The position numbers were made by a program, and so were the translations under genes. This document shows positions 2,189-38,520 of a DNA stretch of 38,520 nucleotides, piece by piece; the stretch's first letter is position 1, and the number at the start of each line of letters is the position of its first letter. Source of the stretch: Alphaproteobacteria bacterium (GTDB taxonomy: Bacteria > Pseudomonadota > Alphaproteobacteria > UBA828); the NCBI GenBank assembly GCA_022826345.1, contig JAJDVB010000150.1:1-38520 (forward strand). Direction: 5' to 3'. Below the pieces are notes generated by a model. That model saw nothing but the letters and a program-made list of their open reading frames with translations, was not told where the DNA came from and made no database searches.

Positions 2189-3945
2189 ACGGCAACACCC
2201 AATCCGGGCTCGCCCAGATCCAGACGCAGATCATGTGGAACCGCCTGATCTCGGTGGTCGAGGAGCAGGCGCAGACGCTGCTGCGCACCGCATTCAGCAC
2301 CACCGTTCGGGAGGCCGGCGATCTCTCCGCCGGCGTCTTCGACACCAAGGGCCGGATGCTCGCCCAGGCGGTCACCGGCACGCCCGGCCACGTCAACTCC
2401 ATGGCCATTGCCGTGCAGCACTTCCTCGCCCGCTACCCCAACGAGGTCATGCGCGAAGGCGACGTCTACATCACCAATGATCCGTGGCTCACCTGCGGCC
2501 ACCTGCACGATCTCACCGTGGTGACCCCGGTGTTCCGCGAGGGCCGGATCATCGGCTCCTTCGCCTGCACCGCCCACGTGGTCGACATCGGCGGACGCGG
2601 CTTCGGGCCGGATGCGCGTTCGGTGTTCGAGGAAGGGCTCTACATCCCGATCATGCCGCTCTGCCGCGAGGGCCGCATCAACGAGGACCTGCTGGAGATG
2701 GTGCGCTGGAATGTGCGCGAGCCGCTCCAGCTCGAAGGCGACGTCCACTCGCTGATCGCCTGCAACCGGGCGGGCGCGGACCGTCTGCTCGCCATGATGG
2801 ACGAGTTCGGGCTGGCCGGCCTCGACGCGCTGGGTGAGGAGATCATCGAGCGCTCGCGCGCTGCCACGCTGGCCGCCATCGCCGAGCTGCCCAAGGGCGC
2901 CTACCGCAACACGCTCACGATGGACGGCTACGACGAGCCGATCACGCTGGCCGCCGCCATGACCATCTCGGGCGAGGGCATCCACGTCGATTTCTCGGGC
3001 ACCTCGCCCGCCAGCAACCACGGCATCAACGTGGTGCTCAACTACACCACCGCCTACACGAGCTTCGGCCTCAAGTGCATCGTGGCCAAGGACATTCCCA
3101 ACAACGCGGGCTCGCTCGCGCCGCTCACCGTGTCTGCGCCGGAAGGTTCGATCCTCAACGTGCCCAGGCCCTGGCCGGTCGCGGCCCGCCACGTCATCGG
3201 CCACATGCTGCCCGACCTTGTGTTCGGCTGCCTGCATCAGGCGATCCCCGAGCGCGTGCCGGCGGAGGGCGCGGCCTCGCTCTGGATCGTGCAGCTGCGT
3301 GGCGGCGCGACCGCCATCGACAGCGAGGCCCGGCGCAACGCGGCGTTCGACCCGCCGGAGTTCGAGGTAGCCCTCTTCAACTCGGGCGGCGCCGGTGCGC
3401 GGCCGACCAAGGATGGGCTCTCCGCCACCGCCTTCCCAAGCGGCGTGCGCACCATCCCTGCCGAGGCCACCGAGACGGTGGCACCCATTGTGATCTGGCG
3501 GAAGGAACTCGCGGCAGACACAGGCGGCGCCGGCCTGCTGCGCGGTGGGCTCGGCCAGGCAATGGAGATCGGCGGCGCGGACGGCGCGCCCTTCAGCGTG
3601 CTCGCGCAATTCGAGCGCATCCACAACCCCGCGCGCGGCCGGGGCGGCGGGCTCGACGGCGGGCCCGGCACCATCGCGCTTGACGATGGCACCGCGCTGC
3701 GCGGCAAGGGCCAGCAGACGATCCCGCCCGGCCAGCGTCTCAAGCTGGTGCTCCCCGGTGGTGCGGGCTACGGTGACCCCCGCCACCGCGGGCCTGAGGA
3801 CGTGGCGGCCGATGTGCGGAACGACCTGGTCTCGCCCGAGGCCGCGCGGCGGGACTATGCGGTCGCCGTCTCGGCAAACGGCACGCTCGACGAGGCTGCC
3901 ACCGCTGCCCTTCGCAGAGGTGGCGCGGCCACGGGAGCCGAATAG
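2185..3945 (+). CDS. hyuB: Hydantoinase/oxoprolinase family protein, subunit B (HyuB-like)
   Basis: This 586-residue cytoplasmic subunit is the partner of the preceding HyuA and is expected to form the substrate-hydrolysing complex with it. The hydantoinase B fold is recognised from REAGDLSAGVFD near residue 44, the YITNDPW motif near 95, GHLHDLTVVTPVF, HVVDIGGRG near 130, the FSGTSPASNHGIN block near 270, and the glycine-rich tail GGAGYGDP near 530. Length and order are normal for a separate B subunit. It starts on the ATG that overlaps the hyuA stop. After it the strand carries no gene for about 530 bases, so this looks like a two-gene operon whose beginning may lie left of the window. It differs in sequence from the other B modules in the window, so it is a diverged paralogue rather than a recent copy. 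Confidence 0.93.
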   Translation: MNGNTQSGLAQIQTQIMWNRLISVVEEQAQTLLRTAFSTTVREAGDLSAGVFDTKGRMLAQAVTGTPGHVNSMAIAVQHFLARYPNEVMREGDVYITNDPWLTCGHLHDLTVVTPVFREGRIIGSFACTAHVVDIGGRGFGPDARSVFEEGLYIPIMPLCREGRINEDLLEMVRWNVREPLQLEGDVHSLIACNRAGADRLLAMMDEFGLAGLDALGEEIIERSRAATLAAIAELPKGAYRNTLTMDGYDEPITLAAAMTISGEGIHVDFSGTSPASNHGINVVLNYTTAYTSFGLKCIVAKDIPNNAGSLAPLTVSAPEGSILNVPRPWPVAARHVIGHMLPDLVFGCLHQAIPERVPAEGAASLWIVQLRGGATAIDSEARRNAAFDPPEFEVALFNSGGAGARPTKDGLSATAFPSGVRTIPAEATETVAPIVIWRKELAADTGGAGLLRGGLGQAMEIGGADGAPFSVLAQFERIHNPARGRGGGLDGGPGTIALDDGTALRGKGQQTIPPGQRLKLVLPGGAGYGDPRHRGPEDVAADVRNDLVSPEAARRDYAVAVSANGTLDEAATAALRRGGAATGAE

Positions 3946-22975: not shown

Positions 22976-24664
22976 ATGGACATGGTCACCATGAACATCA
23001 TCGATTCGACGATGGTGTCCATCTGCCGTGAGATGGGCATCACGATGATGAAGACCTCCTACTCGACCATCTTCAACGAAGGGCTGGACTTCACCTGCGG
23101 CCTCGGCAACACGCGGGGCGACCTGATCGGCGTCGCAGAGTTCAACCCCTCGCAGATCGGCGGACTGCCGCTCGTCCTGCAGACCTCGGCCCAGGAAATC
23201 CCCCACGACGAGGTCGAGGAAGGCGACGTCATCGTCCACAACGACCCCTACCGGGGCGGCATGCACACGCCGGAGCACACCTTCATCAAGCCCGTGTTCT
23301 ACCGGGGCGAACTGATGGGCTACGCCGTCGCCATCGGCCATGTGGCGGAGGTGGGCGGCATGGTGCCGGGCGGCTTCGCCGGCGAGGCTACCGAGATCTT
23401 CCACGAGGGCATGCGCGTGCCCCCGGTCAAAATCAAGGAGCGCGGCGAGGACGTGGTCGAGGTGTGGAAGCTTCTGCTCGCCAACTACCGCACGCCCCGC
23501 ACCAACTACGGCGACTTCCGCGCGCTCATCAGCGCCGTCGACGTGGGCGCGGCCAGGCTCACCGCGCTGATCGAGAAATACGGGCCGGAGACTTTCCGCC
23601 AGACCGCGAACGATCTGATGGACTACGCCGAGGCCCGCATGCGGGCCGAACTCTCGGCGTTTCGCGACGGGGTCTACAGCTTCGAAGATTACATGGAGGA
23701 CGACGGCATCGAGGACCGGCCGTACAAGATCCACGTCGATGTCCACGTCCAGGGCGACGAGGTGGTGGTCGACTACGGCGGCTCCGACACCCAGGCGCAG
23801 GGGCCGATCAACGCGGTGCTCTCGGTCGCCTGGTCCTCGGCCTACAACGCGATCCTGCACCTCACCGACCCGTCGATCCCCAAGAACTCGGGCTGCTTCC
23901 GCCCGATCAAGATCGTGGCGCCCGGCGGCTCCATGGTGAACGCGGACTACCCGGCCACCTGCGTCGGCGGCAACACCGAGACCCACATCCGCATCGCCTA
24001 CACGATCATCGCGGCGCTCGCGCAATGCGTGCCGGACCGCGCCTTCGCCACCGACGCGGGCACCCACAGCAACTTCCTGTTCGGCGCCACCGACCCGCGC
24101 TCCGGCGACTACGTGGTCTGCTACGACTTCACCTGCGCCGCCTGGGGTGGGCGCTCCTTCGCCGACGGCAACGAGGTCATCAACTGCATCAACGGCAACT
24201 CGCGCATGGTGCCGATCGAGGTGTTCGAGGTGCGCTATCCGTGGATGATCGAGGAGTACGCGCTGCAGCCGGACACCGGCGGGCCCGGCCGGTACCGGGG
24301 CGCCCATGCGCTGGCCAAGATCCTGCGCTGCATGGACACGGAGATCACGGTGAGCTCGGTCTCAGACCGCCACAAGATGCGGCCCTGGGGCCTGCTGGGC
24401 GGCGGGCCGGGCGCGACGGGCGGGCTCTTCTATCAGGAAGCCGGCAGCAACGGCTGGCGCCCCTTCACCGAAGCCTTCGGCAAGACCTCGCCCAGCAAGT
24501 TCGCCAACGCGACCATCGGGCCCGGCGACCGGGTCCGGCTGATCGCGCCGGGCGCGGGTGGCTACGGCGATCCCGCGGAACGCGACCCGGCCATGATCGC
24601 CGAAGACCTGAGCGAAGGCTGGATCACGCCGGAGGGCGCGCGCCGCGACTACCGATACTATTGA
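22976..24664 (+). CDS. hyuB: Stand-alone hydantoinase B/oxoprolinase-family protein (HyuB-like)
   Basis: The 562-residue protein is a full-length B subunit: opening MDMVTMNIIDSTMVSICREMG, TSYSTIFNEGLDF near 27-39, GDVIVHNDPYRGGMHTPEHTF near 83-103, GHVAEVGGMVPGG near 120, and GAGGYGDPAERDP near the end. AGGAGG eight bases before the ATG at 22976 fixes the start. Unlike the other B genes here, no A gene lies on either side: upstream is a divergent TA-like pair and downstream a TIR gene on the opposite strand. It must use an A subunit encoded elsewhere, or its original partner was displaced by the foreign genes. The substrate is unknown. Confidence 0.9.
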   Translation: MDMVTMNIIDSTMVSICREMGITMMKTSYSTIFNEGLDFTCGLGNTRGDLIGVAEFNPSQIGGLPLVLQTSAQEIPHDEVEEGDVIVHNDPYRGGMHTPEHTFIKPVFYRGELMGYAVAIGHVAEVGGMVPGGFAGEATEIFHEGMRVPPVKIKERGEDVVEVWKLLLANYRTPRTNYGDFRALISAVDVGAARLTALIEKYGPETFRQTANDLMDYAEARMRAELSAFRDGVYSFEDYMEDDGIEDRPYKIHVDVHVQGDEVVVDYGGSDTQAQGPINAVLSVAWSSAYNAILHLTDPSIPKNSGCFRPIKIVAPGGSMVNADYPATCVGGNTETHIRIAYTIIAALAQCVPDRAFATDAGTHSNFLFGATDPRSGDYVVCYDFTCAAWGGRSFADGNEVINCINGNSRMVPIEVFEVRYPWMIEEYALQPDTGGPGRYRGAHALAKILRCMDTEITVSSVSDRHKMRPWGLLGGGPGATGGLFYQEAGSNGWRPFTEAFGKTSPSKFANATIGPGDRVRLIAPGAGGYGDPAERDPAMIAEDLSEGWITPEGARRDYRYY

Positions 24665-24708
24665 GAGTCCATCTCAACGAGCGCCCGAGTATTTGCTCCG
24701 CGCTACCT

Positions 24709-25800
24709 CTAAAATGGAATATCGTCTATATCACTGCTAGAAGTTTCGGAAATACTCTTTTCCTCAACAGAAAAGTCTTTTCCAGTCGCATCGCATAGGA
24801 ACTTTTCCAATCTTCTGTATTCATTGGTCAAGTATATGGCATTGTGAAGTTGATCATTGTCTCTAAATCCGTTCACAATCTCCTTGATCTCGGAGTCAGT
24901 CAATTCCTGCACAACCTCCTTCATTCGATTAAATCGCGATTTCGTCTCACAAAAATCTGGCGAATTCACAAATGCTCGCACTAACGAGGCTTGCAGCCTT
25001 TGCCCATCATAAACTTTCTCTGACAGCAACTTGTATATCTGAGGAGCTGCGGCAGTCAAATTATCAAGATTGCACTTCAATGCCTGCTGATTGCCGATAA
25101 AGCCCTCCGGGTCCTTGGTCTGTAACTTTACTGCTACAATTGGTATGTCTTTACCTAACGCGAAACCAATCTCCTGATTAGTCCAAATACTCTCATGAAA
25201 ATCGTCTGTGACGAAGGCCAACACGACTTCCATAGTTTCCAGACCCTTAATAATTTCGGCCTGCCAAATGCTCATTGGTTCAATGGAGTCGTGTGCTACA
25301 AAACACGATATGCCGTATGCCTCCAAAGCCTGTGCGAGCTCATTTGCCTCCGCTTTCCATTTATCCCTGTGACTAATGAATAGCCTAATCATTCCTGATT
25401 TCCAGATAGATAGTGAGTCTGGATCTCGCTTCACTCCCCCGTAAATGGGTCTGGCGCGCTGGCACTCCTCTTCGTTTTCATCGTGCACTTCGAGGTGAAC
25501 ATTTGCAAAGAATTCACCGTTAACATTAGCGCAAAGCGTGTTCAGGTCTTTACAAATTCGCTCTGCCACAGGATTTATGTGGTTGATATCAATTTTGGAC
25601 AGCTCTTCAATCGGCAGGAAGAGTTGAACATCGTGTCCATGTGTTCCACCATTCCAATTGTCGTAAACGGTTGCTTCTTCTACAAGCGCACGAGAGAGAC
25701 CTATTAGATCGCACAGCAGTCGGTTCCCATCCCGAGTATATTGTGCATGCAATAGATGACGATAAGTTGACAGTCTTCTTGGAAGGCGGAAATTTTCCAT
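24709..25800 (-). CDS. TIR-domain protein with an unknown N-terminal domain (putative defence effector)
   Basis: The 363-residue protein has a TIR domain at about residues 137-250: MIRLFISHRDK opens it, and SIWTNQEIGFALGKDIPIVAVKL near 204-226 carries the Glu (about 210) that is the catalytic NAD-cleaving residue in bacterial TIR enzymes. The N-terminal 120 residues are conserved-looking but unfamiliar to me, with VYDNWNGGTHGHDVQLFLP near 45-63. The C-terminal third is helical with no known domain, ending in acidic SDIDDIPF. Base composition is very different: a sample line was 42% G+C against 67% in the adjacent hyuB, so horizontal transfer is likely. TIR proteins of this kind often deplete NAD to stop phage infection. 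No partner gene such as a Thoeris ThsA lies next to it. The start at 25800 lacks a strong ribosome site. Confidence 0.85.
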   Translation of the reverse strand: MENFRLPRRLSTYRHLLHAQYTRDGNRLLCDLIGLSRALVEEATVYDNWNGGTHGHDVQLFLPIEELSKIDINHINPVAERICKDLNTLCANVNGEFFANVHLEVHDENEEECQRARPIYGGVKRDPDSLSIWKSGMIRLFISHRDKWKAEANELAQALEAYGISCFVAHDSIEPMSIWQAEIIKGLETMEVVLAFVTDDFHESIWTNQEIGFALGKDIPIVAVKLQTKDPEGFIGNQQALKCNLDNLTAAAPQIYKLLSEKVYDGQRLQASLVRAFVNSPDFCETKSRFNRMKEVVQELTDSEIKEIVNGFRDNDQLHNAIYLTNEYRRLEKFLCDATGKDFSVEEKSISETSSSDIDDIPF

Positions 25801-25824
25801 GGTTCTTAACTTCGCAACAGCGGT

Positions 25825-25838
25825 ATTAGTCCACTAAT
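25825..25838. repeat. Palindrome ATTAGT-CC-ACTAAT upstream of the TIR gene
   Basis: This exact 6-bp inverted repeat with a two-base centre lies 25 bases before the TIR start and four before the end of the neighbouring gene. It is AT-rich like the TIR gene. It might be an operator for that gene or a scar of its insertion. Confidence 0.5.
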
Positions 25839-25841
25839 GGT

Positions 25842-26272: not shown

Positions 26273-29200
26273 TCACTCAGCCGCTTCCGGTAACGGCTCC
26301 GCCCGCTCCGCCGCCGGCCCGTAGCCGCCTCCCGTCGGAGTCTGGAGAACGAAAACATCGCCCGGCCCGACATGGGTGCTGTCGCGACCCGAAAGCTCGA
26401 GCACGGAGCCGTCCGCCCGCTCGACCCAGTTGCGGCCGCACTGGCCGGGCTCGCCGCCTGCCATGCCGTAGGGCGGCACGATGCGGTGGTTGGAGACGAT
26501 GACCAACTCCATGTCTTCGAGAAAGCGGATGCGCCGGTCGCAGCCCGAGCCGCCGACATAGGCGCCTGCACCGCCCGAGCCGTGCCGCACTGAGAAGGTG
26601 TCGAGCATCACCGGGTAGCGCCACTCCAGCACTTCGGGGTCGGTGAGCCGCGTGTTGGTCATGTGCGTATGCACCGCCGAGGTGCCGTCGAAGCCCGGCC
26701 CCGCGCCCGAGCCGCCGCACACGGTCTCGTAGTACTGGTGCGTGTCGTTGCCGAAGATGACGTTGTTCATGGTCCCCTGGCTCGCTGCGAGCACGCCGAG
26801 GGCGCCGTAGAGCGCATCGGTCACGGCCTGGCTGGTCTCGGTATTGCCGGCGACGACGGCGGCCGGATACTCCGGCGCCAGCATGGAGCCCTCGGGGATG
26901 ACGATGTTGATCGGCTTGAGACAGCCCTCGTTCAGCGGGATGTTGTCGTCCACCAGGGTGCGGAAGACGTAGAGCACGGCCGAGCGGCAGACCGCAGACG
27001 GCGCATTGAAGTTGGTCGGCCGCTGCGCGCTGGTACCCGTGAAGTCGACGGTGGCCTCGCGCTTCTCCTTGTCGAAGCTGATCTTGACCTTGATCTTGCC
27101 GCCCTCGTCCAGCGGATAGGTGAATTCGCCGTCCGCCATCACGTCGATGACGCGGCGCACCTGCTCCTCCGCATTGTCCTGGACGTGGCGCATGTAGGCG
27201 TGGACCACGTCCAGGCCGAACTGCTCAATCATCTTGTGGACCTCGCCGACGCCCCTGTTGCCGGCGGCGATCTGCGCCTTGAGGTCGGCGACGTTGTGGT
27301 CGGGCTGGCGCGCGGGATAGCGGCCGGCGGCGAGGTGCGCGCGCAGCTTGTCCTCCAGGAAGACGCCGGCATCCACCAACTTGAAGTTGTCGAAGAGGAT
27401 GCCCTCCTCCTCCACGGTGCGGCTGTCCGGCGGAGTCGAGCCAGGCGTGCGCCCGCCGATATCAGCGTGATGGCCGCGGCTCGCGACGAAAAACAGGATC
27501 TCCTCGCCCGCCTCGTCGAAGATCGGCGTGATAACGGTCACGTCCGGCAGGTGGGTGCCGCCGTTGTAGGGCGCGTTCACCACGTAGACATCGCCGGGCT
27601 TCAGGGCGCCGCGGTTCTCCTGCAGCACCGTGCGCACCGATTGGCCCATGGAGCCCAGATGGATCGGGATGTGGGGCGCATTGGCCACCAGATTGCCGTC
27701 GGGGTCGAACATCGCGCAGGAGAAATCGAGCCGTTCCTTGATGTTCACCGAATAGGCGGTGTTCTCCAGCGTCACGCCCATCTGCTCGGCAATGGACATG
27801 AAGAGGTTGTTGAAGACTTCAAGCATCACCGGGTCGCACTCGGTGCCCACCGCGAATGTGCGCTCCAGGGGGACAACGCGGGTGAGCACGAGGTGGCTCT
27901 TCGCCGTCAGCTCCGCCTGCCAGCCGGGCTCGACCACGGTCGTGGCGGTCTGCTCGCGGACGATCGCGGGGCCAGTGACGCGGTTGCCCGGCAGCATGGC
28001 GTCCCGGTCGAACACCGGGGTGTCGTGCGCGCTTCCGTCCATGTGGGCCTGCACCGTCGCGAGCCGTGGAAGCGCGTCGGCAGCCGCGCGGTCGCTCCGG
28101 TCCGGCTCCTGCGTCTCCGCCATCACGCCGATGCCTTCCACCGCCGCCGCTTCGACGATCAGCCTCTTCTGCGGCATGATGAAGCCGTAAATCCGATGAT
28201 GCGCGGCCTCGAACCGGGCCTGCATCTCCTGCGGCGTTCCGAACTCGATGGCGTGCGGCGTGTCGCTCCCGTCGTAACGGATGTGCGCGCGACGGAGGAC
28301 CTCGATGCGCGCGTCGGGGATGTCCTGCTCCCGCAGCTCCGTCTCGGCCTGTCCGGCGAGATCGTCGAGCACCGCCGCAAGCTCGGGCATCAGCGCGTCG
28401 TCCAGCGGCGCCTCGACGGCCCGCTCCCGGAGCGCGCGAATGTCCGCGAGTCCCATGCCGTAGGCCGAGAGCACACCGGCGAAGGGGTGGATCAGCACCG
28501 TCGTCATGCCGAGCGCGTCCGCCACCAGGCAGGCGTGCTGGCCGCCCGCCCCGCCGAAGCAGTTGAGCGTGTAGCCGGTCACGTCGTAGCCGCGCTGCAC
28601 CGAGATCTTCTTGATCGCGTTGGCCATGTTCTCCACCGCGATCTTGAGGAAGCCGGCGGCGACCTCGGTGGGCGTGCGCTCGTCGCCCGTGGCCTCGCGG
28701 ATCTCCGCCGCCAGGCCTGCGAATTTCTCGCGCACCGCGTCGGCGTCCAGCGGCTCGTCCTGGCCGGGGCCGAAGACGTGGGGGAAGAATTCAGGCTGCA
28801 GCGTGCCGAGCATGACGTTGCAGTCGGTGACGCAGAGCGGCCCGCCCCGCCGGTAGCTCGCCGGTCCCGGATCGGCACCCGCCGATTCGGGCCCCACGCG
28901 GTAGCGCGCGCCGTCGAAGAAGCAGATCGAGCCGCCGCCCGCCGCCACCGTGTGGATCAGCATCATCGGTGCGCGCATGCGCACGCCGGCCACCAGCGTC
29001 TCGAAGGCGCGCTCGTAGGCGCCGTCGTAGTGCGCCACGTCCGTCGACGTGCCGCCCATGTCGAAGGAGATGATCTTGTCGAAGCCCGCCTGCCCCGCCG
29101 TCTCCACCGCGCCGACGATGCCCCCGGCCGGTCCGCTCAATATCGCGTCCTTGCCCTGGAAGAGCGTCGCGTCGGTCAAGCCGCCGCTCGACTGCATGAA

Positions 29201-29917
29201 CATGAGCCGCGTGCCGCCCAGCTCCGCCGCCACCTGATCGACGTAGCGGCGCAGCAGCGGCGAGAGGTAGGCATCGACCACGGTGGTGTCGCCGCGGCTC
29301 ACGAGCTTCATAAGCGGGCTGGTCTCGTAGCTTGTCGATACCTGGGTGAAGCCGATCTCGCGCGCGAGTTCCGCCGCCGCCTGCTCGTGCGCGGGGAAGC
29401 GATAGCCGTGCATGAAGACGATGGCGACGGAGCGGATGCCGTCGTCGTAGGCCGCCTGAAGCAAGGGCCGCGCCGCCGCCCCGTCCAGCGCGCGGAGCAC
29501 GGTGCCGTCGGCCATCACCCGCTCGTCCACCTCGACGACGCGCTCGTAGAGCATCGAGGGCAAGACGATCTGGCGGTCGAAGAGGTTGGGCCGCGTCTGG
29601 TAGCCGATTCGGAGCGCATCGGCGAAGCCCATGGTCGTGACCAGCAGGGTGCGGTCGCCTTCACGCTCCAGCAAGGCGTTGGTCGCCACCGTGGTGCCCA
29701 TCTTGACCACGTCGATCTCGTCGCCGGGAATCGGCGCACCGGCGGCGACGCCCATGAGCTCGCGAATCCCCTGGATCGCGGCATCGCGGTAGTGCTCCGG
29801 GTTCTCGGAGAGGAGCTTGCGCGTCACCAGGGCGCCGTCGGGACTACGCCCCACGATGTCGGTGAAGGTCCCGCCCCGGTCGATCCAGAATTGCCAGCGC
29901 GGCTGGGAATCAGCCAT
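26273..29917 (-). CDS. Fused HyuA-HyuB, 5-oxoprolinase (ATP-hydrolysing)-like
   Basis: This 1214-residue single-chain enzyme has the layout of 5-oxoprolinase, which opens the pyroglutamate ring with ATP to give glutamate. The A part begins [21 protein letters not shown] at residues 8-28, then [28 protein letters not shown] near 285, [12 protein letters not shown] and the [18 protein letters not shown] block, with [20 protein letters not shown] near 460. The B part starts near residue 695: ...[61 protein letters not shown] and GGGGGYGP-like [15 protein letters not shown] at the end. Length and [12 protein letters not shown] fit bacterial 5-oxoprolinase well. The ATG at 29917 is preceded by GGAG nine bases away. 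It is the fourth HyuA/B locus here, and the only fused one. A lactam other than 5-oxoproline remains possible. Confidence 0.93.
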
Positions 29918-29964
29918 GTCGCGATACTCCAACTATCGAAATAACGGCGGCCGGTCTGCGGCCC

Positions 29965-30744
29965 TCAGTCCACCAGCCCGATCTCGTCGCCGGCCTTGAC
30001 CGGCCCCTCCTTGATCACCGCCGCGTAGACCCCGGCGAAGCCGTCGCGCGTGCGATTGACGTGCTTCAAGAGCGCGGGCGTGGTCTCGGCGGTCTCAGGG
30101 TGGATGGTGATGAACTTGCAGCGGGGGTCGCGCTCCACGACCATCAGCTCGACCTTGTCGCCCACCGCGACCCTACGGCCCACCAGCTCGTCCTCGTAGA
30201 AGCCGCCCTGCTCGCTCCAATCGACGTAGAGGTTGGAGCGGAACTGCAGCTTGTGGACATCAATGCCGGTCTCCTCGGCAAGCTGGCCCACGGTCTGCAG
30301 CGAGAACAGCGTCACCGGCCGGCAATCGACCAGGCTGCGCTGGGTGAACCGCAGCGAGAGATCGCCCTTGGACCTGTCCTCGATCCCGTCCAGGAAGGCC
30401 GGGTCCTCGATATCCAGCACCGAGCCGTCGGGGCGTTCCACCTCGACGGCGAAGGCGTCCGCCTCCGGAAAGGGCGCATGGATGTTGGCGGGATGGCCCA
30501 TCGCCTCTTCCATGTTGTCGGGCTTGAGCGTGCCATCGCGCTGCTTGAAGCGCGCCTGGTAGAGCACCAGGTCCTCCTGCTCCCGCGCCGTGTGCCAGGG
30601 GAAGGCCGGGTCCGCGGCGGAGGACGCGATCGCATAGACCCGATCGCCCATCAGCCCGGTGAAGGCCACGAAGATCTCGTCGACCTCCTCGCCCCGCATG
30701 CTCTTCACCGGATACCGCCAGATGCTCTCAACCCTGCCCAACAT
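29965..30744 (-). CDS. MOSC domain-containing protein
   Basis: The 259-residue protein has an N-terminal MOSC_N barrel (ESIWRYPVKSMRGEEVDE near 6-23, the YPVKS motif being diagnostic) and a C-terminal MOSC domain with FRSNLYVDWSEQGGFYEDELVGRRVAVGDKVELMVVERDPRCKFITIHPETAE near 178-230. The Cys in DPRCKFITI corresponds to the conserved cysteine in mARC and YcbX, where it holds the molybdenum cofactor. Such proteins reduce N-hydroxylated bases and amidoximes, or carry sulfur. No ferredoxin domain is attached. It sits between the deaminase-like and oxoprolinase-like genes in a minus-strand run, 47 bases before the latter. Detoxification of N-hydroxylated analogues is a plausible inference. Confidence 0.92.
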   Translation of the reverse strand: MLGRVESIWRYPVKSMRGEEVDEIFVAFTGLMGDRVYAIASSAADPAFPWHTAREQEDLVLYQARFKQRDGTLKPDNMEEAMGHPANIHAPFPEADAFAVEVERPDGSVLDIEDPAFLDGIEDRSKGDLSLRFTQRSLVDCRPVTLFSLQTVGQLAEETGIDVHKLQFRSNLYVDWSEQGGFYEDELVGRRVAVGDKVELMVVERDPRCKFITIHPETAETTPALLKHVNRTRDGFAGVYAAVIKEGPVKAGDEIGLVD

Positions 30745-30884
30745 CGCTCTGCCCTTTCCCGTTCACGTGACCACCGCCGGCCGCCCCTTACGCCCCTGTG
30801 TACACCATTTACGGACGTTCTTCCGGAATGAAGCGGGATTCTTCAGGCCATCGGGCAGCGCCCCGACCTCGCGACGCGGGCGGG

Positions 30885-32186
30885 TTAGCCTTGCGGCTTG
30901 TAAGTCAACGCCACGCTGTTGGGCCGCCCCGGCACGCTGAGCTCCGTCACGGTCTCCGGCGTGCGCGCAACCACCTCGCCGCGGCGGATCACCGCGAGCC
31001 GCGTCGCCCGCAGTCGAATCGCTTCCAGCGGGTCCGCGGCCTGGAGCACGACCATGTCGGCGTGGCAACCGGGCTCAAGCCCGTAACCCTCGAGGTGCAT
31101 CATCCTGGCGGGGTTCACCGTGATCGCGTCGAAGCAGGCCCGCACCTCGTCCTCCTTGAACATGGCCGCCACGTGCGAGCCCATGTGCGCGACCTCCAGC
31201 ATGTCGGCGCTGCCATAGACGTACCACGGGTCCATCATGCAATCCTGGCCGAAGGCTATAGTGATGCCCGCCTCTCTCAGCTCCGGCACGCGCGTCATGC
31301 CGCGCCACTTGGGATAGCTGCCGTTGTTGTGCCCCCACGCCGCGATGTTGGTCAGGGGATTGGGGGTCACGCCGATCTCAGACTCGGCGATCAGCGGGAT
31401 CAGCTTGCTGACGTAGTAGTTGTCCATGACGTGCATGGAGGCCAGATGCGAGGCCGTCACCCGCCCTTGCAGGCCGAGGCGGTGGGTCTCCCTGGAAAGC
31501 GTCTCGATGTGGCGCGACATCGGGTCGTCGGTCTCGTCGCAATGCATGTCGACGAGGAGCCCGCGGTCCGCCGCAATCTCCATGAGCTCGGTCACCGACG
31601 CGGTGCCGTCGGCCATCGTGCGCTCGAAATGAGGGATGCCGCCCACGACCTCGACGCCCATGTCGAGCGCCCGTCGCAGGAGCTCCTGCGCGTTGGGGTA
31701 GCGGTAATAGCCCATCTGCGGGAAGGCGATGAGCTGCAGGTCGATGTACGGCGCGACCCGGCGCTTGACCTCGAGCAGCGCCTCGACGCCGGTCAACCTG
31801 TCGTCGCAGACGTCCACATGGCTGCGAATCGCCTGGATTCCCTGGGCGAGCGCCATGTCGCAATAGGTCATCGCCCGCTCGGCAACCGCCTCCGGAGTCA
31901 ATTGGCGCTTCAGCTCATCCCAGAGGTAGATGCCCTCGAAGAGGAGGCCGGATTGGTCAGGGCGCGGCAGGGCGTCCGTCAGCGGGCGCGCCAGCGTCGC
32001 ATCCATGTGGAAGTGAGCATCGATGAAGGGCGGCGAGACCAGCCGGTCGGTGGCGTCAATTTCCTGCGCAGCCTCGGCCTCCAGCGCGGGCTCTACGGCA
32101 ACGATGCGCCCGTCCTGCACGCCGATGTCCACGCCCGTCCGCCCATCAGGCAGATTGGCGCCGCGCACGATCAAATCCATCGCCAT
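30885..32186 (-). CDS. Cytosine deaminase-like amidohydrolase (CodA family)
   Basis: The 433-residue metal-dependent ring deaminase resembles E. coli CodA along its length: DAHFHMD (metal-binding His pair, about 56-62), NQSGLLFEGI-like DQSGLLFEGIYLWDELK, RSHVDVCDD, LQLIAFPQMGYYRYPN, HCDETDDPMSRHIETLS (catalytic Glu), TASH, NPLTNI and WGHNNGSYPKWRGMTRV. The CodA FGHDD block reads FGQDC: the catalytic Asp is kept but the next residue, Asp314 in CodA and known to control substrate choice, is Cys, and the preceding His is Gln. Cytosine may therefore not be the substrate; creatinine or another iminolactam-like ring is possible. GGGGAGAG seven bases before the ATG supports the start. It stands 234 bases after hyuB3 and 140 before the MOSC gene, on their strand. 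Confidence 0.9.
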   Translation of the reverse strand: MAMDLIVRGANLPDGRTGVDIGVQDGRIVAVEPALEAEAAQEIDATDRLVSPPFIDAHFHMDATLARPLTDALPRPDQSGLLFEGIYLWDELKRQLTPEAVAERAMTYCDMALAQGIQAIRSHVDVCDDRLTGVEALLEVKRRVAPYIDLQLIAFPQMGYYRYPNAQELLRRALDMGVEVVGGIPHFERTMADGTASVTELMEIAADRGLLVDMHCDETDDPMSRHIETLSRETHRLGLQGRVTASHLASMHVMDNYYVSKLIPLIAESEIGVTPNPLTNIAAWGHNNGSYPKWRGMTRVPELREAGITIAFGQDCMMDPWYVYGSADMLEVAHMGSHVAAMFKEDEVRACFDAITVNPARMMHLEGYGLEPGCHADMVVLQAADPLEAIRLRATRLAVIRRGEVVARTPETVTELSVPGRPNSVALTYKPQG

Positions 32187-32363
32187 GTCGTCTCTCCCCT
32201 TATCCGCTTCGCCTCAAGCGACGCAGACCGCGACCATAGTGAGGAATGCGGGCCAGGCCCGCCATCGACACGAGACCAGTTCAAGGATGGCGACAGCTTA
32301 AGCGCCCTGCGCCTGCGCAGCCCCGCCTCCTGCAGCCGCTATATCCCGGGCAATTCTCGCGAG

Positions 32364-32388
32364 ACCGCCGTAAGCCTCATTCGGCGGT
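32364..32388. other. Hairpin in the gap between hyuB and the deaminase-like gene
   Basis: ACCGCCG and CGGCGGT form a 7-bp stem around an 11-base loop, in the 233-base gap downstream of hyuB. No T-run follows on either strand. It might mark the end of the hyuAB transcript. I see no gene in this gap. Confidence 0.3.
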
Positions 32389-32419
32389 CAATACGAGCCG
32401 ACTTCGGGGTGTTTGTCCC

Positions 32420-34345
32420 CTACTCCGCCGCGGCGCCTGCTTCGGCGGCCTTGGCCTCACGCTCCTGCAGGAAGCGCAGCACGCGCCGGTTGAACTCCGG
32501 CGGCTTGGGTGGCGCGAGCTCGGTCTCCTCCAGACAGCGCTCGCGGAGCTCCTCGACGGTGCCACCGCGGTCGAAGAGCTGTACCTCGCCCCGCGCCGCG
32601 CGCATCTTGTCGCGGAGTGCCGTGGTCGCCTCTTCGTCGACCATCAGGTCGTCACGCAGCACCACCCCATAGCGCTCGGCACCAGCACGCGTGACCAGGC
32701 CGCGCTCGACCTCCAGCGCCACCAGGGCCGGATCGCGCTCCAGAGGATCGCCCCAACCGCCGCCGCCCCAGGTCTTGAAGAGCAGCAGATCGCCGGCCTC
32801 GACCTTCACGTGGTCGCACTTGGACGGCAGCACCTCGAAGGAGCCGTCGGCGCGGTGGATTTCCTTCCGGCTCCGCCCGCCCGGCAGGCCGCCGTTGACG
32901 CCCCACGGATAGGTGAGCCAGCGGTCGTCGTGCAGCGACATCTCGCCGGGCTCAAGCGCCCGGTAGCCGATGGTAACGCCGTTGCCGCCCCGATGGAGGC
33001 CGGGCCCGCCGGAGTCTGCGATGGTCTCGTAGACCTCGATACGGAGCGGGAAGTATGCCTCCAGGAACTCGTTAGGCACGTTGGTGAACGAGGGCCAGAG
33101 CGAGTGCCCGTCGGGGCCGTCGCCGGCCGGCCGGCCGGGGATGCCGCCAAAGCCGATCTGGTAGAGCTGGTACCACTCGCCCTCGCTCGAATAGCCCGAA
33201 TACATGAAGTGCGGGCTGTCGGAGAAGCCGGCCGCCACCATGAGGTTGGGTGCGCGCTGGCCGAGCAGGCCGCCGAGCACGTCGAAGATGCGCCCCAGCG
33301 CGTGCGTCCGCGACGAGAGCGCCGCCGGCTTCAGCGGCTTGAGCAGCGTGCCCGGCGGGATTTTCACGTCGACGTGGTCGTAGAAGCCGTCGTTGAACAT
33401 GATCTGCGGATCGAAGACGTTGATCATGTAAACGCCGACGAACATCTTGAACATTTCTTCGTTGAGGAAGAAGTTGATGGAGCTTTCCGACTGCGGATCG
33501 GTGCCGTCGAAGTCGAACACCAGCACGTCGCCGTCGCGCCACATCTTGCAGGCCATCTTGTAGGGGCCCATGCCGAGGCCGTCGTCGCAGATATAGTCCT
33601 CGAAGTAGAGGGTCTCGTCCTCACCAACCGTGTTGCGGATCAGGTGCAGCATCGCGCGCCGGTTGCGCTCAAGCAGCTCGTCCATCGCCGCGATCACGGT
33701 ATCCACGCCGAAGCGATCGCAGAGCTCGTGAATGCGCTTTTCGGCGAGGCGTACGGCGGCGATCAACGCGTTGAAGTCGCTCCGGTTCCACTGCGGCATC
33801 CGGCACTGGTGCAGGATCACCTTGAGCACGTCGTCCTGCAGCTCGTCGTTCTTGTAGATCTTGACGATCGGGATGACGACGCCTTCCTCGTAGATCTGGT
33901 TGGCATCCGTCGGGAGGCTCCCCGGCACCTTGCCGCCGACATCGGTCATGTGGCCGAACATGGAGGCATAGGCGATGAGACGGCCGTCGCGATACACCGG
34001 GCGCAGAATCAGCCAATCCGGCGCATGGCTGATGGCACCGGCGCAGCTGTAGGGATCGGAGGTGAGGAAGATATCCCCCTCCTCGATGGTGCCGTCGTAC
34101 TCGCGCTTGAAGCCGTGGATGAAGGAGCCGAACTGGCCGACGACCATCTTGCCGTCGGGGTTCGCGATCATCGGGAACTCGTCGTGCTGCTCGCGGATTC
34201 CCGGCGACATGGCGGTGCGGTAGAGCACGGCGTCCATCTCGTAGCGGGCGCTGCGCAGCGCGCTCTCGATGATGTCGAGAGTGATCGGGTCCATATCGAC
34301 CGGCTCGAATGGCGCGTCGTTGGTCTGGACGATGGTGACTGGCAT
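32420..34345 (-). CDS. hyuB: Hydantoinase/oxoprolinase family protein, subunit B (HyuB-like)
   Basis: The 641-residue B subunit is longer than most. It carries DPITLDIIESALRSARYEMDAVL near 19-41, GDIFLTSDPYSCAGAISHAPDW near 95-116, GHMTDVGGKVPGSLPT near 130, FDFDGTDPQSESSINFF near 290, and GGGGWGDPLERDPALV near 560. A charged C-terminal helix with EEATTALRDKMRAARGEVQ, ETELAPPKPPEFNRRVL and FLQEREAKAAEAG extends beyond the usual family end. The ATG at 34345 is 17 bases after the hyuA stop. GGGGGA is somewhat far for a ribosome site. With the preceding A subunit it forms one ATP-dependent ring-opening enzyme. It is distant in sequence from the other B modules in this window. Confidence 0.93.
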   Translation of the reverse strand: MPVTIVQTNDAPFEPVDMDPITLDIIESALRSARYEMDAVLYRTAMSPGIREQHDEFPMIANPDGKMVVGQFGSFIHGFKREYDGTIEEGDIFLTSDPYSCAGAISHAPDWLILRPVYRDGRLIAYASMFGHMTDVGGKVPGSLPTDANQIYEEGVVIPIVKIYKNDELQDDVLKVILHQCRMPQWNRSDFNALIAAVRLAEKRIHELCDRFGVDTVIAAMDELLERNRRAMLHLIRNTVGEDETLYFEDYICDDGLGMGPYKMACKMWRDGDVLVFDFDGTDPQSESSINFFLNEEMFKMFVGVYMINVFDPQIMFNDGFYDHVDVKIPPGTLLKPLKPAALSSRTHALGRIFDVLGGLLGQRAPNLMVAAGFSDSPHFMYSGYSSEGEWYQLYQIGFGGIPGRPAGDGPDGHSLWPSFTNVPNEFLEAYFPLRIEVYETIADSGGPGLHRGGNGVTIGYRALEPGEMSLHDDRWLTYPWGVNGGLPGGRSRKEIHRADGSFEVLPSKCDHVKVEAGDLLLFKTWGGGGWGDPLERDPALVALEVERGLVTRAGAERYGVVLRDDLMVDEEATTALRDKMRAARGEVQLFDRGGTVEELRERCLEETELAPPKPPEFNRRVLRFLQEREAKAAEAGAAAE

Positions 34346-34362
34346 CTCGCTTTTCCCCCGCC

Positions 34363-36417
34363 TCAGTGGCCGACCGGGTTGATGATGATGTTGCCGTATC
34401 CGTCGACCACGCCCACATGGCCCGGCAGGACGAGCGTGGTCGAGTCCATCTCGGTCACGATCGCCGGCCCCTCGATCCGGTTGCCGGCCTGGAGCCTGCC
34501 GCGGTCGTAGATGGCGGCCTCCTGATCGCGATTGTCGACGTAAACCGAGGCACTCGCAACCTTGGCCGCCGATGGATCGGCGCCGCCCTCGGCCACGTGA
34601 CCGGCTTCCACGAAGGTCTCGGCGCCGCGCATGATGGCGCGCAACGTCACGATCTCGTGCTCCGCGTCGAGCGCGAAGGTGAAGAGCTGGGTGTGCTCGT
34701 CGTCGAACTGCTTGGCGAGCCAGGCGAGCCCCTCGCGCTCGAACTCGTCCGCCGTGAAGCTCACGGGGAGCTGCAGCCCCTGGCCGTGGTAGCGCAGGTC
34801 CACCTCGTACTGCACCGACTGGTCCTCGCGCGCGATGCCCTCGGCATCGAGCTCCTGCCGGGCGCGGGCCTCGAGGTCGTCGAGGATGCCGCGCACCTCG
34901 GCGTCCGAGGTCTCCGAGAAGCGCCGCACGAAGCTCATCGAAGCCTCGTCGGTCACCCGCGTCGTGGCATCGCCGTAGGCGCAGAGCACGCCGGGCGAGG
35001 GCGGGATGATGACCGGCCACGAGTTCATCAGCTTGGCGAGCGCGTTGGCGTGCAGCGGCCCGGCCCCGCCGAAGGCGATCAGCGCGAAGTCGCGCGGATC
35101 GAACCCCTGCTGCACCGAGACCAGCCTGAGCGCACCGAACATGTTCTCGTTGACGATATCGATGATGCCGGCCGCAGCCCGCTTGAGATCGAGACCCAAA
35201 GCCGTGGCGACAGTCTGCACCGCGTTGACCGCGGCATCGACATCGAGCTTCATCTCGCCGCCGATCAGCTCGCTCGGCAGGTAGCCGAGCACGACATTGG
35301 CATCGGTAACCGTCGGCTGGTCGCCGCCCATCCCGTAGGCCGCAGGCCCCGGATCGGCGCCCGCGCTCTGCGGCCCGACACGAAGCGCGCGCGTGATCTC
35401 GGGCACGTGGGCGATCGAGCCGCCGCCCGCGCCCACGGTACGCACGTCGAGCGAGGGCGCACGCACGGTGACGTCGCCCACCGTGGTCTCGCGCCGCTTG
35501 CGCGGCACGCCGTCGAGGATCAGCGCGACGTCGGTGGACGTGCCGCCCATGTCGAGTGTGAGCAGGTTCTGGTAGCCGGCCTGCTTGGCGATCCAGAGCG
35601 CGCCGGCCACACCGCCGGCAGGCCCGCTCATCAGCACGTTCACCGGCGAGTTGCGGCTCGCCTCGACCGAGGCGAGGCCGCCGTCCGAACGCAGGATGTG
35701 CAGATGGGCGTCGATCTTGCGCTGCTTCAGCTCCCGCTCCAGGTTGCGGACATAGACCTGGACCACCGGCGCCACGTAGGAGTTGGCGACCGTGGTGATC
35801 GCGCGCTCGTATTCGTACATCTCGGGCAGGACCTCGGACGAGATCGAGACCGGCACGCCGGGCATCACCTCGTGGGCGATCTCGCGGATCTGCTCTTCGT
35901 GTATGCCGCCGGCGTAGGCGTTCATCAGGCAGACGGTCAGCGCCTCGATCCCTTTGGTCTTGAGATGGGAGAGCTTCTCGCGCAGGTCGTCCTCGTTCAG
36001 CTCGCGGACCACGTCGCCCCGCGCGCCGGTGCGCTCTTTCGCCTCGACGGTGAGCTCCAGTGGCGCGAGCGGCTCGGGCTTGGGCCAGATGATCCAGCCG
36101 GCGAGGATGCCGGGAACGAAGGAGCGGGCGATCTGCAGCATCTGCCCGTAGCCCTCGGTGGTCACGATGCCGACGCGGGCGCCCTTCCCTTCCAGGATGG
36201 TGTTGGTCGCGACCGTGGTGCCGTGCATCACGTGGGTGATCGAGGCCGGCTCGACGCCCGCGTTCTCGCACACCCGCTCGATGCCGTTGAGCACGCCGAT
36301 CGAGGAATCCTGCGGGGTGGACGGCACCTTCGCACGGTAGGTGCCGCCGCTCGATTCATCGATCAGCAAGAGATCGGTGAACGTCCCGCCGACGTCCACC
36401 CCTAAGCGAAAAGCCAT
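34363..36417 (-). CDS. hyuA: Hydantoinase/oxoprolinase family protein, subunit A (HyuA-like)
   Basis: The 684-residue A subunit starts FRLGVDVGGTFTDLLLIDE at about 3-21, then MHGTTVATNTILEGKGARVGIVTTEGYG, a SEVLPEMYEYERAITTVANSYVAPVVQ block, [24 protein letters not shown] near 280, GAGGGSIAHVPE and [25 protein letters not shown], and IAFGGAGPLHANALAKLM near 440. GGAGGAG about six bases before the ATG at 36417 fixes the start. It is on the strand of the ABC permeases and begins 102 bases after the second one ends, so transporter and enzyme are likely expressed together. Homologues in this context hydrolyse N-methylhydantoin, hydantoins, lactams, or carboxylate ketones. Confidence 0.93.
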   Translation of the reverse strand: MAFRLGVDVGGTFTDLLLIDESSGGTYRAKVPSTPQDSSIGVLNGIERVCENAGVEPASITHVMHGTTVATNTILEGKGARVGIVTTEGYGQMLQIARSFVPGILAGWIIWPKPEPLAPLELTVEAKERTGARGDVVRELNEDDLREKLSHLKTKGIEALTVCLMNAYAGGIHEEQIREIAHEVMPGVPVSISSEVLPEMYEYERAITTVANSYVAPVVQVYVRNLERELKQRKIDAHLHILRSDGGLASVEASRNSPVNVLMSGPAGGVAGALWIAKQAGYQNLLTLDMGGTSTDVALILDGVPRKRRETTVGDVTVRAPSLDVRTVGAGGGSIAHVPEITRALRVGPQSAGADPGPAAYGMGGDQPTVTDANVVLGYLPSELIGGEMKLDVDAAVNAVQTVATALGLDLKRAAAGIIDIVNENMFGALRLVSVQQGFDPRDFALIAFGGAGPLHANALAKLMNSWPVIIPPSPGVLCAYGDATTRVTDEASMSFVRRFSETSDAEVRGILDDLEARARQELDAEGIAREDQSVQYEVDLRYHGQGLQLPVSFTADEFEREGLAWLAKQFDDEHTQLFTFALDAEHEIVTLRAIMRGAETFVEAGHVAEGGADPSAAKVASASVYVDNRDQEAAIYDRGRLQAGNRIEGPAIVTEMDSTTLVLPGHVGVVDGYGNIIINPVGH

Positions 36418-36519
36418 TCTTTCTCCTCCCAAGCGCAGTATGCGGCCAAGGCCGAGCCAGCGGGCGCGGCAGAGCGGCTAGCACCCTGCTAAGGTTTGCG
36501 CCAGCAGCGGCTACCGAGT

Positions 36520-37383
36520 CTAGCCGTCCGACGCTTTCTCCGCCTTTTTGGCGATGCTCAACCCGGCGCCGGTGCGCCGTTTCTGAATGATGTAGACGGC
36601 CAGGAAGCTCACGAAGATCACCACCAGCGAGAACACCGTCGTCATGGTGCCGATGGCGTAGATCGCGGGCGTCGCCGCCAGCGTGAGCGTGTTCACGAGC
36701 TCGACCGGAAGCGTATTGAACTCGCCCGCCACGGACGATGTGCGCGGGAATTCGTCGTAGGAGAGCGTGAAGCCGAAGAGGGCCACGCCGATCAGCCCCG
36801 GCAGCGTGATGGGTATGATCACGTTTCGGAGCGTCTGCCACTGGGTCGCGCCCTGGTCCTTGGCAGCCTCCTCAAGCCTCGGGTCGAGCCGGCTGAACAC
36901 CGCCAGCATGATCAGCACGCCGAAAGGCAGCGTCCAACTCAGGTGCGCGCCGAGAGCGCCCGACCACCACTGGCTGGTCATGCCCAAGTTGGAGAAGCCC
37001 AGGCCGATACCCAGGCTGATCAGGATCGACGGGCAGATCAGGCTGGCCACGACGATGTAGAAGACCACGATATTGCCGGTGAAGTTCTTGCGGAACGCGA
37101 GACCGGCAAGGAACGAAATGCCCATGGTCAGGAACATGACGATCAAGCCAAGAATGAGCGAGCGCCCGAACGGCCAGCGGAAGTCGCCGATGTAGGACGG
37201 GTCAATCACCTCTTTGAACCAGAAGAGTGAGAAGCCCTGCATCGGGAATGAGAGCGAGGCGCCGTCGTCCTGGAACGAGAGCACCACGATGATGATGATC
37301 GGCCCGTAGAGGAACAGGAGGTAGAGGTAGAAGATCGTCGCGCGCGGCCAATAGCCCGGCGCTCGTCTGGTTTCGTGGCCCAT
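36520..37383 (-). CDS. ABC transporter permease, spermidine/putrescine type (PotC-like)
   Basis: The 287-residue inner-membrane permease has six hydrophobic segments: about 20-38, 70-92, 104-126, 135-155, 180-200 and 245-265. The cytoplasmic loop that contacts the ATPase, EAAKDQGATQWQTLRNVIIPITLPGL, is at about 177-202 and keeps the EAA...G signature. WFKEVIDPSYIGDF and RTSSVAGEFNTLPVELVNTL resemble the PotC/YdcV group of polyamine, mannopine and opine importers. It starts two bases after the first permease gene stops, so translation is coupled. The 102-base gap to hyuA downstream is compatible with one transcript. The ATPase gene is not in the window, so it must lie to the right or elsewhere. 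Confidence 0.92.
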   Translation of the reverse strand: MGHETRRAPGYWPRATIFYLYLLFLYGPIIIIVVLSFQDDGASLSFPMQGFSLFWFKEVIDPSYIGDFRWPFGRSLILGLIVMFLTMGISFLAGLAFRKNFTGNIVVFYIVVASLICPSILISLGIGLGFSNLGMTSQWWSGALGAHLSWTLPFGVLIMLAVFSRLDPRLEEAAKDQGATQWQTLRNVIIPITLPGLIGVALFGFTLSYDEFPRTSSVAGEFNTLPVELVNTLTLAATPAIYAIGTMTTVFSLVVIFVSFLAVYIIQKRRTGAGLSIAKKAEKASDG

Positions 37384-37385
37384 GG

Positions 37386-38255
37386 CTAAAGCTGCTTTCG
37401 CACGTCGACGAGGCGCATGATGATGCCGACGATGATCAACACGGCCAGCATCAGGATGATGGCCGAGGCGGACGCCGGCGGATACTGGACATTATAAATC
37501 TGGTTGCTCATGGAGGCCATGACCGTACCGACCCGCGCGCCGCTGAGGATGCGGATCGCCGTGAAGTCGCTGGCCACCAGGGCGATCACGAAGATCGCTC
37601 CGATGGCGAGGCCCGGCTTGCAGAGCGGGATGATCACGTGCCACAGGATCTGGATCCCGTTGGCACCGTTATCGCGCGCCGCCTCGATCAGGTCGCGATT
37701 GATCCGCGCCATGACGTTGAAGAGCGGCGCCATCATGAAGAGCGTAAATATTTGCACGTAGGACAGGAAGACGGCGAATTCCGAGAATAGGAGAAATTGG
37801 AGCGGCGTGTCCGATATGCCGACTGCCATGACCGCCTGGTTGATGATGCCTTCCTTCCCCAGGAACGGAATCCAGGCCACCATGCGGATGACGCCGGAGG
37901 TCCAAAACGGCACGACGCAGAGCAGGAACAGAAGCAGTTTGGTTCTGAGTTGAATGAGGTCGAAAACAAGAAAATAAGCGAGGGTAAAGCCGAGAACCGT
38001 CGTGATAGCCAGCGTGATCGCCAGCATCTTCAAGGTTTGCACATAGTTGTCGAACGTCAGGTTTTTCGAGAACAGCTTGATGTAGTTGGAGAACGTCCAG
38101 TCGCCCTCCACCATCATGAAGCCGTTGAAATTCCACAGGCTGATGATCAGGATCACGATCACCGGCCCCACCAGGAAGAAGGTGAGCGTGATCAGCAGCG
38201 GCGAGATCTGCAGCGCCGTCGCGTAGCGTTTCAAGAAAGCGTTGACCGCCGCCAT
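37386..38255 (-). CDS. ABC transporter permease, spermidine/putrescine type (PotB-like)
   Basis: The 289-residue permease is the first of a pair. Hydrophobic helices lie at about 15-38, 70-95, 104-124, 142-165, 200-225 and 255-278. ATPase-contact loop EAARDNGANGIQILWHVIIPLCKPGL is at about 188-213. VPFWTSGVIRMVAWIPFLGKEGIIN is typical of the PotB/YdcU permeases, which import polyamines and other cationic small molecules. The ATG at 38255 and GTGs two and one codons earlier are possible starts. The ribosome site is weak. An intercistronic hairpin separates it from the solute-binding protein gene. Confidence 0.92.
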   Translation of the reverse strand: MAAVNAFLKRYATALQISPLLITLTFFLVGPVIVILIISLWNFNGFMMVEGDWTFSNYIKLFSKNLTFDNYVQTLKMLAITLAITTVLGFTLAYFLVFDLIQLRTKLLLFLLCVVPFWTSGVIRMVAWIPFLGKEGIINQAVMAVGISDTPLQFLLFSEFAVFLSYVQIFTLFMMAPLFNVMARINRDLIEAARDNGANGIQILWHVIIPLCKPGLAIGAIFVIALVASDFTAIRILSGARVGTVMASMSNQIYNVQYPPASASAIILMLAVLIIVGIIMRLVDVRKQL

Positions 38256-38305
38256 CACCACCGACTCTTGGGCAATTCAGGTCTTCAGAATTAAGAAAAG
38301 AAAGT

Positions 38306-38339
38306 GGGGGAGCGGGACGCTTCGGCCCCCTGCTCCCCC
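38306..38339 (-). terminator. Intercistronic hairpin between the solute-binding protein and permease genes
   Basis: GGGGGAGC and GCTCCCCC give an 8-bp perfect stem, extended by GGG/CCC around a loop, in the 99-base gap between the binding-protein stop and the permease start. On the minus strand it is followed by ACTTTCTTTTCTTAATTC, moderately U-rich. Partial terminators of this kind are known between binding-protein and permease genes and raise the ratio of binding protein to permease. Confidence 0.6.
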
Positions 38340-38354
38340 TTATGCGTTCGCCCC

Positions 38355-38520
38355 TTACGCGGCGATGAACTCGTTCCAGCGGTCGGTGAGGTACTCGTTC
38401 TCGTCCATGACCGAGTTCCACACCGCGACGCGGCCCATGCGGTTCTTGTAGGAGCCGCCGTCGCGCACCGCGCCCGGCTTCTCCATGAGCTTGCCGAACG
38501 GACTGTAAATGTCGACCGTG
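38355..38520 (-). CDS. ABC transporter solute-binding protein, PotD-like (C-terminal end only)
   Basis: Only the last 54 codons lie in the window. Read on the minus strand, they give TVDIYSPFGKLMEKPGAV, DGGSYKNRMGRVAVWNSVMD and ENEYLTDRWNEFIAA, then a TAA stop at 38355-38357. The WN.VMDE...L...WNEF.AA end is that of PotD/YdcS-type periplasmic binding proteins. The gene lies directly before two PotB/PotC-like permeases on the same strand, so it is the binding protein of that importer. The N-terminal signal and ligand site are outside the window. Confidence 0.85.
   Translation of the reverse strand, partial: TVDIYSPFGKLMEKPGAVRDGGSYKNRMGRVAVWNSVMDENEYLTDRWNEFIAA

Follow-up and report, generated by a model that had tools for sequence, protein, structure and literature searches.

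We asked whether a cytosine-type deaminase gene that adjoins genes for an ABC importer and a HyuA-HyuB pair belongs to one pathway with them, or whether two separate functions lie side by side. The stretch of alphaproteobacterial DNA analysed, here called the window, is 38,520 nucleotides long. An earlier note had described PotD/B/C-like importer genes, a HyuA-HyuB pair and a CodA-like deaminase on one strand, and coordinates together with Pfam and NCBIfam profiles confirmed all of them, on the minus strand. The row starts with the C-terminal fragment (last 54 codons plus stop, 38355-38519) of a PotD-like solute-binding protein, 81% identical to the complete PotD of locus L001. It is followed by a PotB-like (37386-38261) and a PotC-like (36520-37383) ABC permease, both assigned by Pfam and NCBIfam; PotB precedes PotC and HyuA1 in relatives too. 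HyuA1 (34363-36432; Hydantoinase_A, 1.2e-90) is the predicted ATP-binding subunit of an ATP-dependent cyclic-amide hydrolase, and HyuB1 (32420-34345, ATG at 34345; Hydantoinase_B, 2.8e-144) its predicted metal-binding subunit. The deaminase AMH, a CodA-like amidohydrolase (30885-32186), comes next. The gaps are 2 bases between PotB and PotC, 87 between PotC and HyuA1, 17 between HyuA1 and HyuB1, and 233 between HyuB1 and AMH.

The next gene after AMH encodes a MOSC-domain protein (29965-30744, minus strand), a neighbour found in L001 as well, not in L002. A second Hyu enzyme, a fused HyuAB (26273-29932, minus strand), lies on this side of AMH, and an HbpS-like gene comes after both. The window holds three HyuB domains besides HyuB1: one in the fused gene, one at 22976-24664 and one in a HyuA+HyuB region at 53-3945. 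A TIR-domain gene (24709-25800) has 44% G+C, compared with 66% for the window, and matches a Thoeris type III protein weakly (54 of 220 bits); the stretch that carries it (24672-25841) is missing in L001, where its flanks are 52 bases apart.

Gene order around HyuA1 and HyuB1 in related genomes

We searched 60 relatives, G001 included, with a 650-residue HyuB1 translation from 34372, nine residues longer than the form from the ATG at 34345. Matches at E 1e-150 or better were found in 21 genomes, and in 15 the identity was at least 79%. The close relatives, among them G001-G004, the genomes of loci L001-L004, are all metagenome-assembled, and absences in them may be gaps. Pot genes lay directly before HyuA1 in 13/13 of these 15 genomes with enough sequence; the contigs of G008 and G023 stop short of the Pot position and were left out. 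PotA-PotD-PotB-PotC was complete and in this order in 11 of the 13. The earlier note had advised looking past position 38520 for the ATPase gene, and PotA indeed stands before PotD in the relatives. The opposite strand past PotA carried an acyl-CoA dehydrogenase gene in 11/11 genomes and a class III CoA-transferase gene, with formyl-CoA transferase as its best solved match, in 10/10. The conserved gene order, and the ATP-site and metal-site residues kept in HyuA1 and HyuB1 (see below), bear out the proposal that importer and HyuAB form a putative unit of uptake plus ring opening.

The importer had been called polyamine-type. It does share its gene content, and the families of PotA, PotB and PotC, with the spermidine/putrescine importer PotABCD, but its genes all fall below the curated cut-offs, most of them far below. 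On the NCBIfam spermidine/putrescine profiles, the window's PotB scored 128 of 348 and PotC 109 of 326, PotA of L001 scored 342 of 482, and the solute-binding protein barely resembled solved polyamine binders (best E 0.0026). Given these scores, import of polyamines was set aside as unsupported. PotB and PotC of the window are 97% identical to those of G003 and 74-79% to those of G001, whereas HyuA1 is 98% identical to that of G001 and 93% to that of G003; this pattern suggests an exchange of the importer genes (36520-38519) from lineage to lineage.

Downstream of HyuB1, 11 loci have an ICL/PrpB-like lyase gene. Eight belong to the 15 genomes (L148-L152, L154-L156), and three (L160-L162) have a HyuB at 67-70% identity. 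An amidase gene follows the lyase in five loci (L149, L150, L152, L154 and L156), and PrpD-like and Sua5-domain genes are also present downstream in some. No lyase was matched in the stretches fetched downstream of HyuB1 in G001-G004. A gene without a known Pfam family occupies this place in G003, the same gene and a radical SAM gene were found in G004 and G008, and in G010 a radical SAM gene is followed by the ICL/PrpB-like lyase. Since the genes 3′ of HyuB1 differ among G001-G004, G008 and G010, this side varies within the window's sublineage, and AMH appears to be one of several genes that have come in there.

Linkage of the deaminase to HyuA1 and HyuB1

Only the window, G001 and G002 have AMH after HyuB1. 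Among the other genomes, it was missing downstream of HyuB1 in 8/8 for which 5 kb or more of sequence is available on that side (L145, L146, L148, L149, L150, L154, L156 and L157), and in the shorter downstream stretches of the other five. G003 and G004 carry it on other contigs, and searches of G007 and G010 gave no close copy (best match 44-45% identical), which may reflect incompleteness of these metagenome-assembled genomes. Even in G001 and G002, HyuB1 and AMH are parted by an antisense gene that encodes 276 residues (DUF4875), and next to this gene G002 carries a repeated fragment of the HyuB1 3′ end. The DNA around AMH that is common to the window and to L002, L165 and L166 starts at 32213, 27 bases before the AMH start codon.

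We further studied the surroundings of 80 deaminase loci from species genomes, 56 of which were flanked by 5 kb or more of sequence on each side. A BMP-type importer lay within 10.5 kb in 43/80, and in 39 the permease of this importer was no more than 500 bases away; 51/80 had this importer or at least one pyrimidine-related marker. The markers were PreA/PreT (6 loci), dihydropyrimidinase (11), carbamoylase (15), an SsuA/NMT1-like binding protein (16) and a RutR-like protein (7). NCBIfam cut-offs were passed for PreA (740.8 bits against 335), dihydropyrimidinase (465 against 393) and carbamoylase (642 against 452), and were not reached by the PreT-like, RutR-like and importer proteins. Importer and markers were both missing in 29/80 loci, including the closest, L001-L004, and any HyuA or HyuB gene was near the deaminase in 4/80 (L001, L002, L003 and L008). 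A tree built from 103 of the 106 deaminase rows joined the window and L001-L004 in one clade with support 100, nested in mostly importer-linked rows, a placement that is weak (80-91). In L004 (334-4633), an 87% identical deaminase comes after LivG/LivF-like ABC genes, an alpha/beta hydrolase and an isochorismatase-family hydrolase, close-packed on one strand.

The earlier note had made the deaminase a step in the importer-HyuAB route. This is contradicted by a linkage limited to the window and two genomes, with an antisense gene in between there, and by deaminase relatives that stand more often beside a BMP-type importer or pyrimidine-catabolism genes. Judged by these gene neighbourhoods, the locus would probably consist of two independent units, PotA-PotD-PotB-PotC-HyuA1-HyuB1 for the uptake and ATP-driven ring opening of a cyclic amide or imide, and a cytosine-type deaminase. 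The deaminase may have come to lie 3′ of HyuB1 in an ancestor of the window and the two sampled genomes.

It is also conceivable, if unlikely, that AMH and HyuA1B1 (or the fused HyuAB) act in succession on a different imported ring, for example a pyrimidine, isocytosine or a triazine-like compound, in the window's sublineage only. AMH and HyuB1 share a strand, and a pattern scan of 30600-32800 revealed no terminator or promoter between them. With no terminator found across these 233 bases, read-through from HyuB1 into AMH is possible, a point that the scan neither supports nor excludes. Moreover, AMH2, a CodA-like gene distinct from AMH, comes right behind another HyuA-HyuB pair in G003 and G004; in G001 and G002 it is found about 4 kb away from yet another pair (AMH2 loci L190, L191, L220 and L221). 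However, the antisense gene in G001 and G002 and the location of the deaminase elsewhere in G003 and G004 argue against successive action, and Hyu neighbours are less telling in genomes with so many HyuB-like genes. At E 0.001, the HyuB1 query had 53, 46, 42 and 37 matches in G001-G004 (3.6-4.7 Mb each), none in G005 and 2 in G006. With 37-53 HyuB-like genes in each of the four relatives, a Hyu neighbour is weak evidence. Three further counts speak against independent units. One is the 29/80 deaminase loci, L001-L004 among them, that lack every pyrimidine-related marker. The share of G001 near one of its listed HyuB genes (46 of 53) was 2.7% within 500 bases, 5.4% within 2 kb and 17.5% within 10 kb, and the first two values mean that chance adjacency is not common. 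By hand count, 7/17 CodA-like genes of G001-G004 lay within 10 kb of a listed HyuB; compared with the G001 rate this gives a binomial P of 0.02 on the assumption of independence, which orthologous genes such as these do not have.

Candidate substrates of the deaminase and the creatinine question

AMH passes the cut-off of the cytosine deaminase subfamily NF005748 (709.9 bits against 438). It matches E. coli CodA and the CodA-like 4r7w, which we take to be the Klebsiella 5-methylcytosine deaminase, with about 327 bits each over nearly the full length. His58, His60, Gln157, His215, Glu218, His247 and Asp315 of AMH occupy positions that presumably have metal-binding or catalytic roles in CodA. 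AMH shares these residues with both CodA and 4r7w, and they were identical in every covered row of a 109-row alignment, in which at least four rows are duplicates, since L116-L119 contain the genes of L001-L004. The position of CodA Trp319 was Trp in 104/109 rows, another residue in 3 and uncovered in 2. At site 314, where we take the wild-type CodA residue to be Asp, AMH has Cys316 and 4r7w Ser; Cys was found in 86/109 rows and Ser in 21, and 2 were uncovered. A small residue at this site presumably admits 5-methylcytosine as a substrate, and Cys316 gives AMH this mark of a 5-methylcytosine deaminase. One paper (PMC6186785) describes the Klebsiella 5-methylcytosine deaminase as related to cytosine deaminases. 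Because AMH keeps the cytosine-deaminase catalytic residues and has Cys at the Asp314 site, cytosine and 5-methylcytosine rank above creatinine, and AMH most likely acts on cytosine or 5-methylcytosine.

Use of creatinine through a cytosine deaminase and an N-methylhydantoinase is already in print, as a proposal drawn from the annotation of sponge metagenomes (PMC6742649). In the window, such a route would have the importer take up creatinine, the deaminase convert it to N-methylhydantoin and HyuA1B1 open this ring with ATP to N-carbamoylsarcosine. The gene types suit this route, and the best PDB match of both HyuA1 (459 bits) and HyuB1 (225 bits) is the solved N-methylhydantoinase (7hk5 series, 9h03). 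That enzyme differs in being one fused chain of 1288 residues, whereas HyuA1 and HyuB1 are encoded by separate genes. We searched four related genomes with the HyuA part of 7hk5 and found that the nearest relative in all four is encoded at another locus, in G001 on contig C57; it is a fused chain some 1290 residues long (64-65% identity, 951-961 bits). HyuA1, at 38-39% and 442-466 bits, ranked 7 of 22, 8 of 20, 4 of 18 and 13 of 17 among matches at E 1e-120 or better, and is not the genome's closest gene to the solved enzyme. With so much closer a relative at another locus, the suggestion that this HyuAB is the N-methylhydantoinase finds no support. The fused gene is surrounded by serine ammonia-lyase, amidase and other genes, and no deaminase was matched there with a query set that included AMH. 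The creatinine route is further opposed by the importer scores below the polyamine cut-offs and by a deaminase that is not conserved with the importer-HyuAB unit. Synteny and the better N-methylhydantoinase relative at another locus led us to reject it; creatinine degradation is unlikely here, and the three-step route set out above seems very improbable.

No N-carbamoylsarcosine amidohydrolase was recognised at the annotated loci. The isochorismatase-family gene directly before the L004 deaminase was considered for this role, but its low scores do not warrant the assignment. It matched 3kl2 with 83 bits, biuret hydrolase with 62, RutB with 52, 3eef (named N-carbamoylsarcosine amidase related) with 50 and 1nba, the solved carbamoylsarcosine enzyme, with only 35. 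On curated profiles it scored 69 of 370 for biuret amidohydrolase and 62 of 378 for RutB, far under the cut-offs. Taken together, the data would correct a tempting annotation, in which cytosine deaminase and HyuAB are read as creatinine degradation in metagenomes (as in PMC6742649): here they are not conserved together, and the genome has a closer relative of N-methylhydantoinase at another locus.

Predicted chemistry of HyuA1B1 and the abundance of HyuAB genes

HyuA1 Asp13 and Asp294 align with Asp11 and Asp295 of the ATP site of CapA, and HyuB1 Asp55, His107, Asp110 and His132 (counted from the ATG at 34345) align with CapB Asp41, His99, Asp102 and His124. The pair therefore has both the ATP-site aspartates and the Asp-His-Asp-His metal site of the ATP-dependent lactamase/hydantoinase superfamily. 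Mutation of these residues in caprolactamase lowers or abolishes activity, according to its description (PMC8453981). Since HyuA1 and HyuB1 retain the residues on which caprolactamase activity depends, ATP-dependent hydrolysis of a cyclic amide or imide is the best reading of HyuA1B1. The caprolactamase CapAB of Pseudomonas jessenii (PDB 6yra; PMC8453981) likewise has two subunits, an ATP site and an Asp-His-Asp-His metal site. However, HyuA1 and HyuB1 reach 534 of 1000 and 200 of 1000 on the NCBIfam equivalog cut-offs, below the caprolactamase equivalog. HyuB1 lacks vicinal cysteines at the position that aligns with those of the CapB pocket, and HyuA1B1 is adjoined by importer and acyl-CoA genes.

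An acetone/acetophenone-type carboxylase belongs to the same superfamily (HyuA1 matched acetophenone carboxylase ApcC with 338 bits and structure 5l9w at 2.9e-93), and the neighbouring CoA-transferase and dehydrogenase could process its product. We consider it very unlikely that HyuA1B1 is such an enzyme and not a cyclic-amide hydrolase, given that HyuA1 scored higher with caprolactamase (534 bits) and N-methylhydantoinase (459) than with carboxylases (338 and 317), and HyuB1 showed that order too.

For a cyclic-amide hydrolase, we infer the substrate class and every pathway step from what is observed directly, namely gene order, its conservation and the intact catalytic residues. The ABC importer may take up a small cyclic amide or imide, whose ring HyuA1 would activate with ATP and the HyuB1 metal site would hydrolyse, after the mechanism proposed for caprolactamase. 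The CoA-transferase and acyl-CoA dehydrogenase genes nearby, joined in many relatives by genes for an ICL/PrpB-like lyase, an amidase and a PrpD-like protein, suggest that the ring-opened product would enter acyl-CoA metabolism through these enzymes. Judging by the gene neighbours, a cyclic imide whose half-amide the amidase cuts would fit. More tentatively, and with rather less than even confidence, the island might represent an undescribed route for cyclic imides or lactams that runs from PotADBC-like uptake and ATP-driven ring opening through ammonia release by the amidase, CoA transfer and acyl-CoA dehydrogenation to PrpD/ICL-type cleavage. If so, the lineage would have specialised in opening cyclic amides and would carry dozens of HyuAB systems, this island among them. 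The conserved uptake-plus-ring-opening cluster itself lends itself to testing.

The expansion of the HyuAB superfamily in G001-G004 is striking and points to a lineage unusually rich in HyuAB-type genes. In a class sample of 289 genomes, at least 20 first-look PF02538 candidates, counted by hand with at most four per genome scored, were found in 10 of the 182 listed, and the other 107 had no match. Judged by titles and the openings of abstracts, the open-licence literature yielded no report of many HyuAB copies per genome or of HyuAB with such an importer. On another contig of G001 (C24, locus L163), a second pair resembling HyuA1 and HyuB1 (63% identity) lies near its own PotD, PotB and PotC (59-65%), another HyuB and an amidase.
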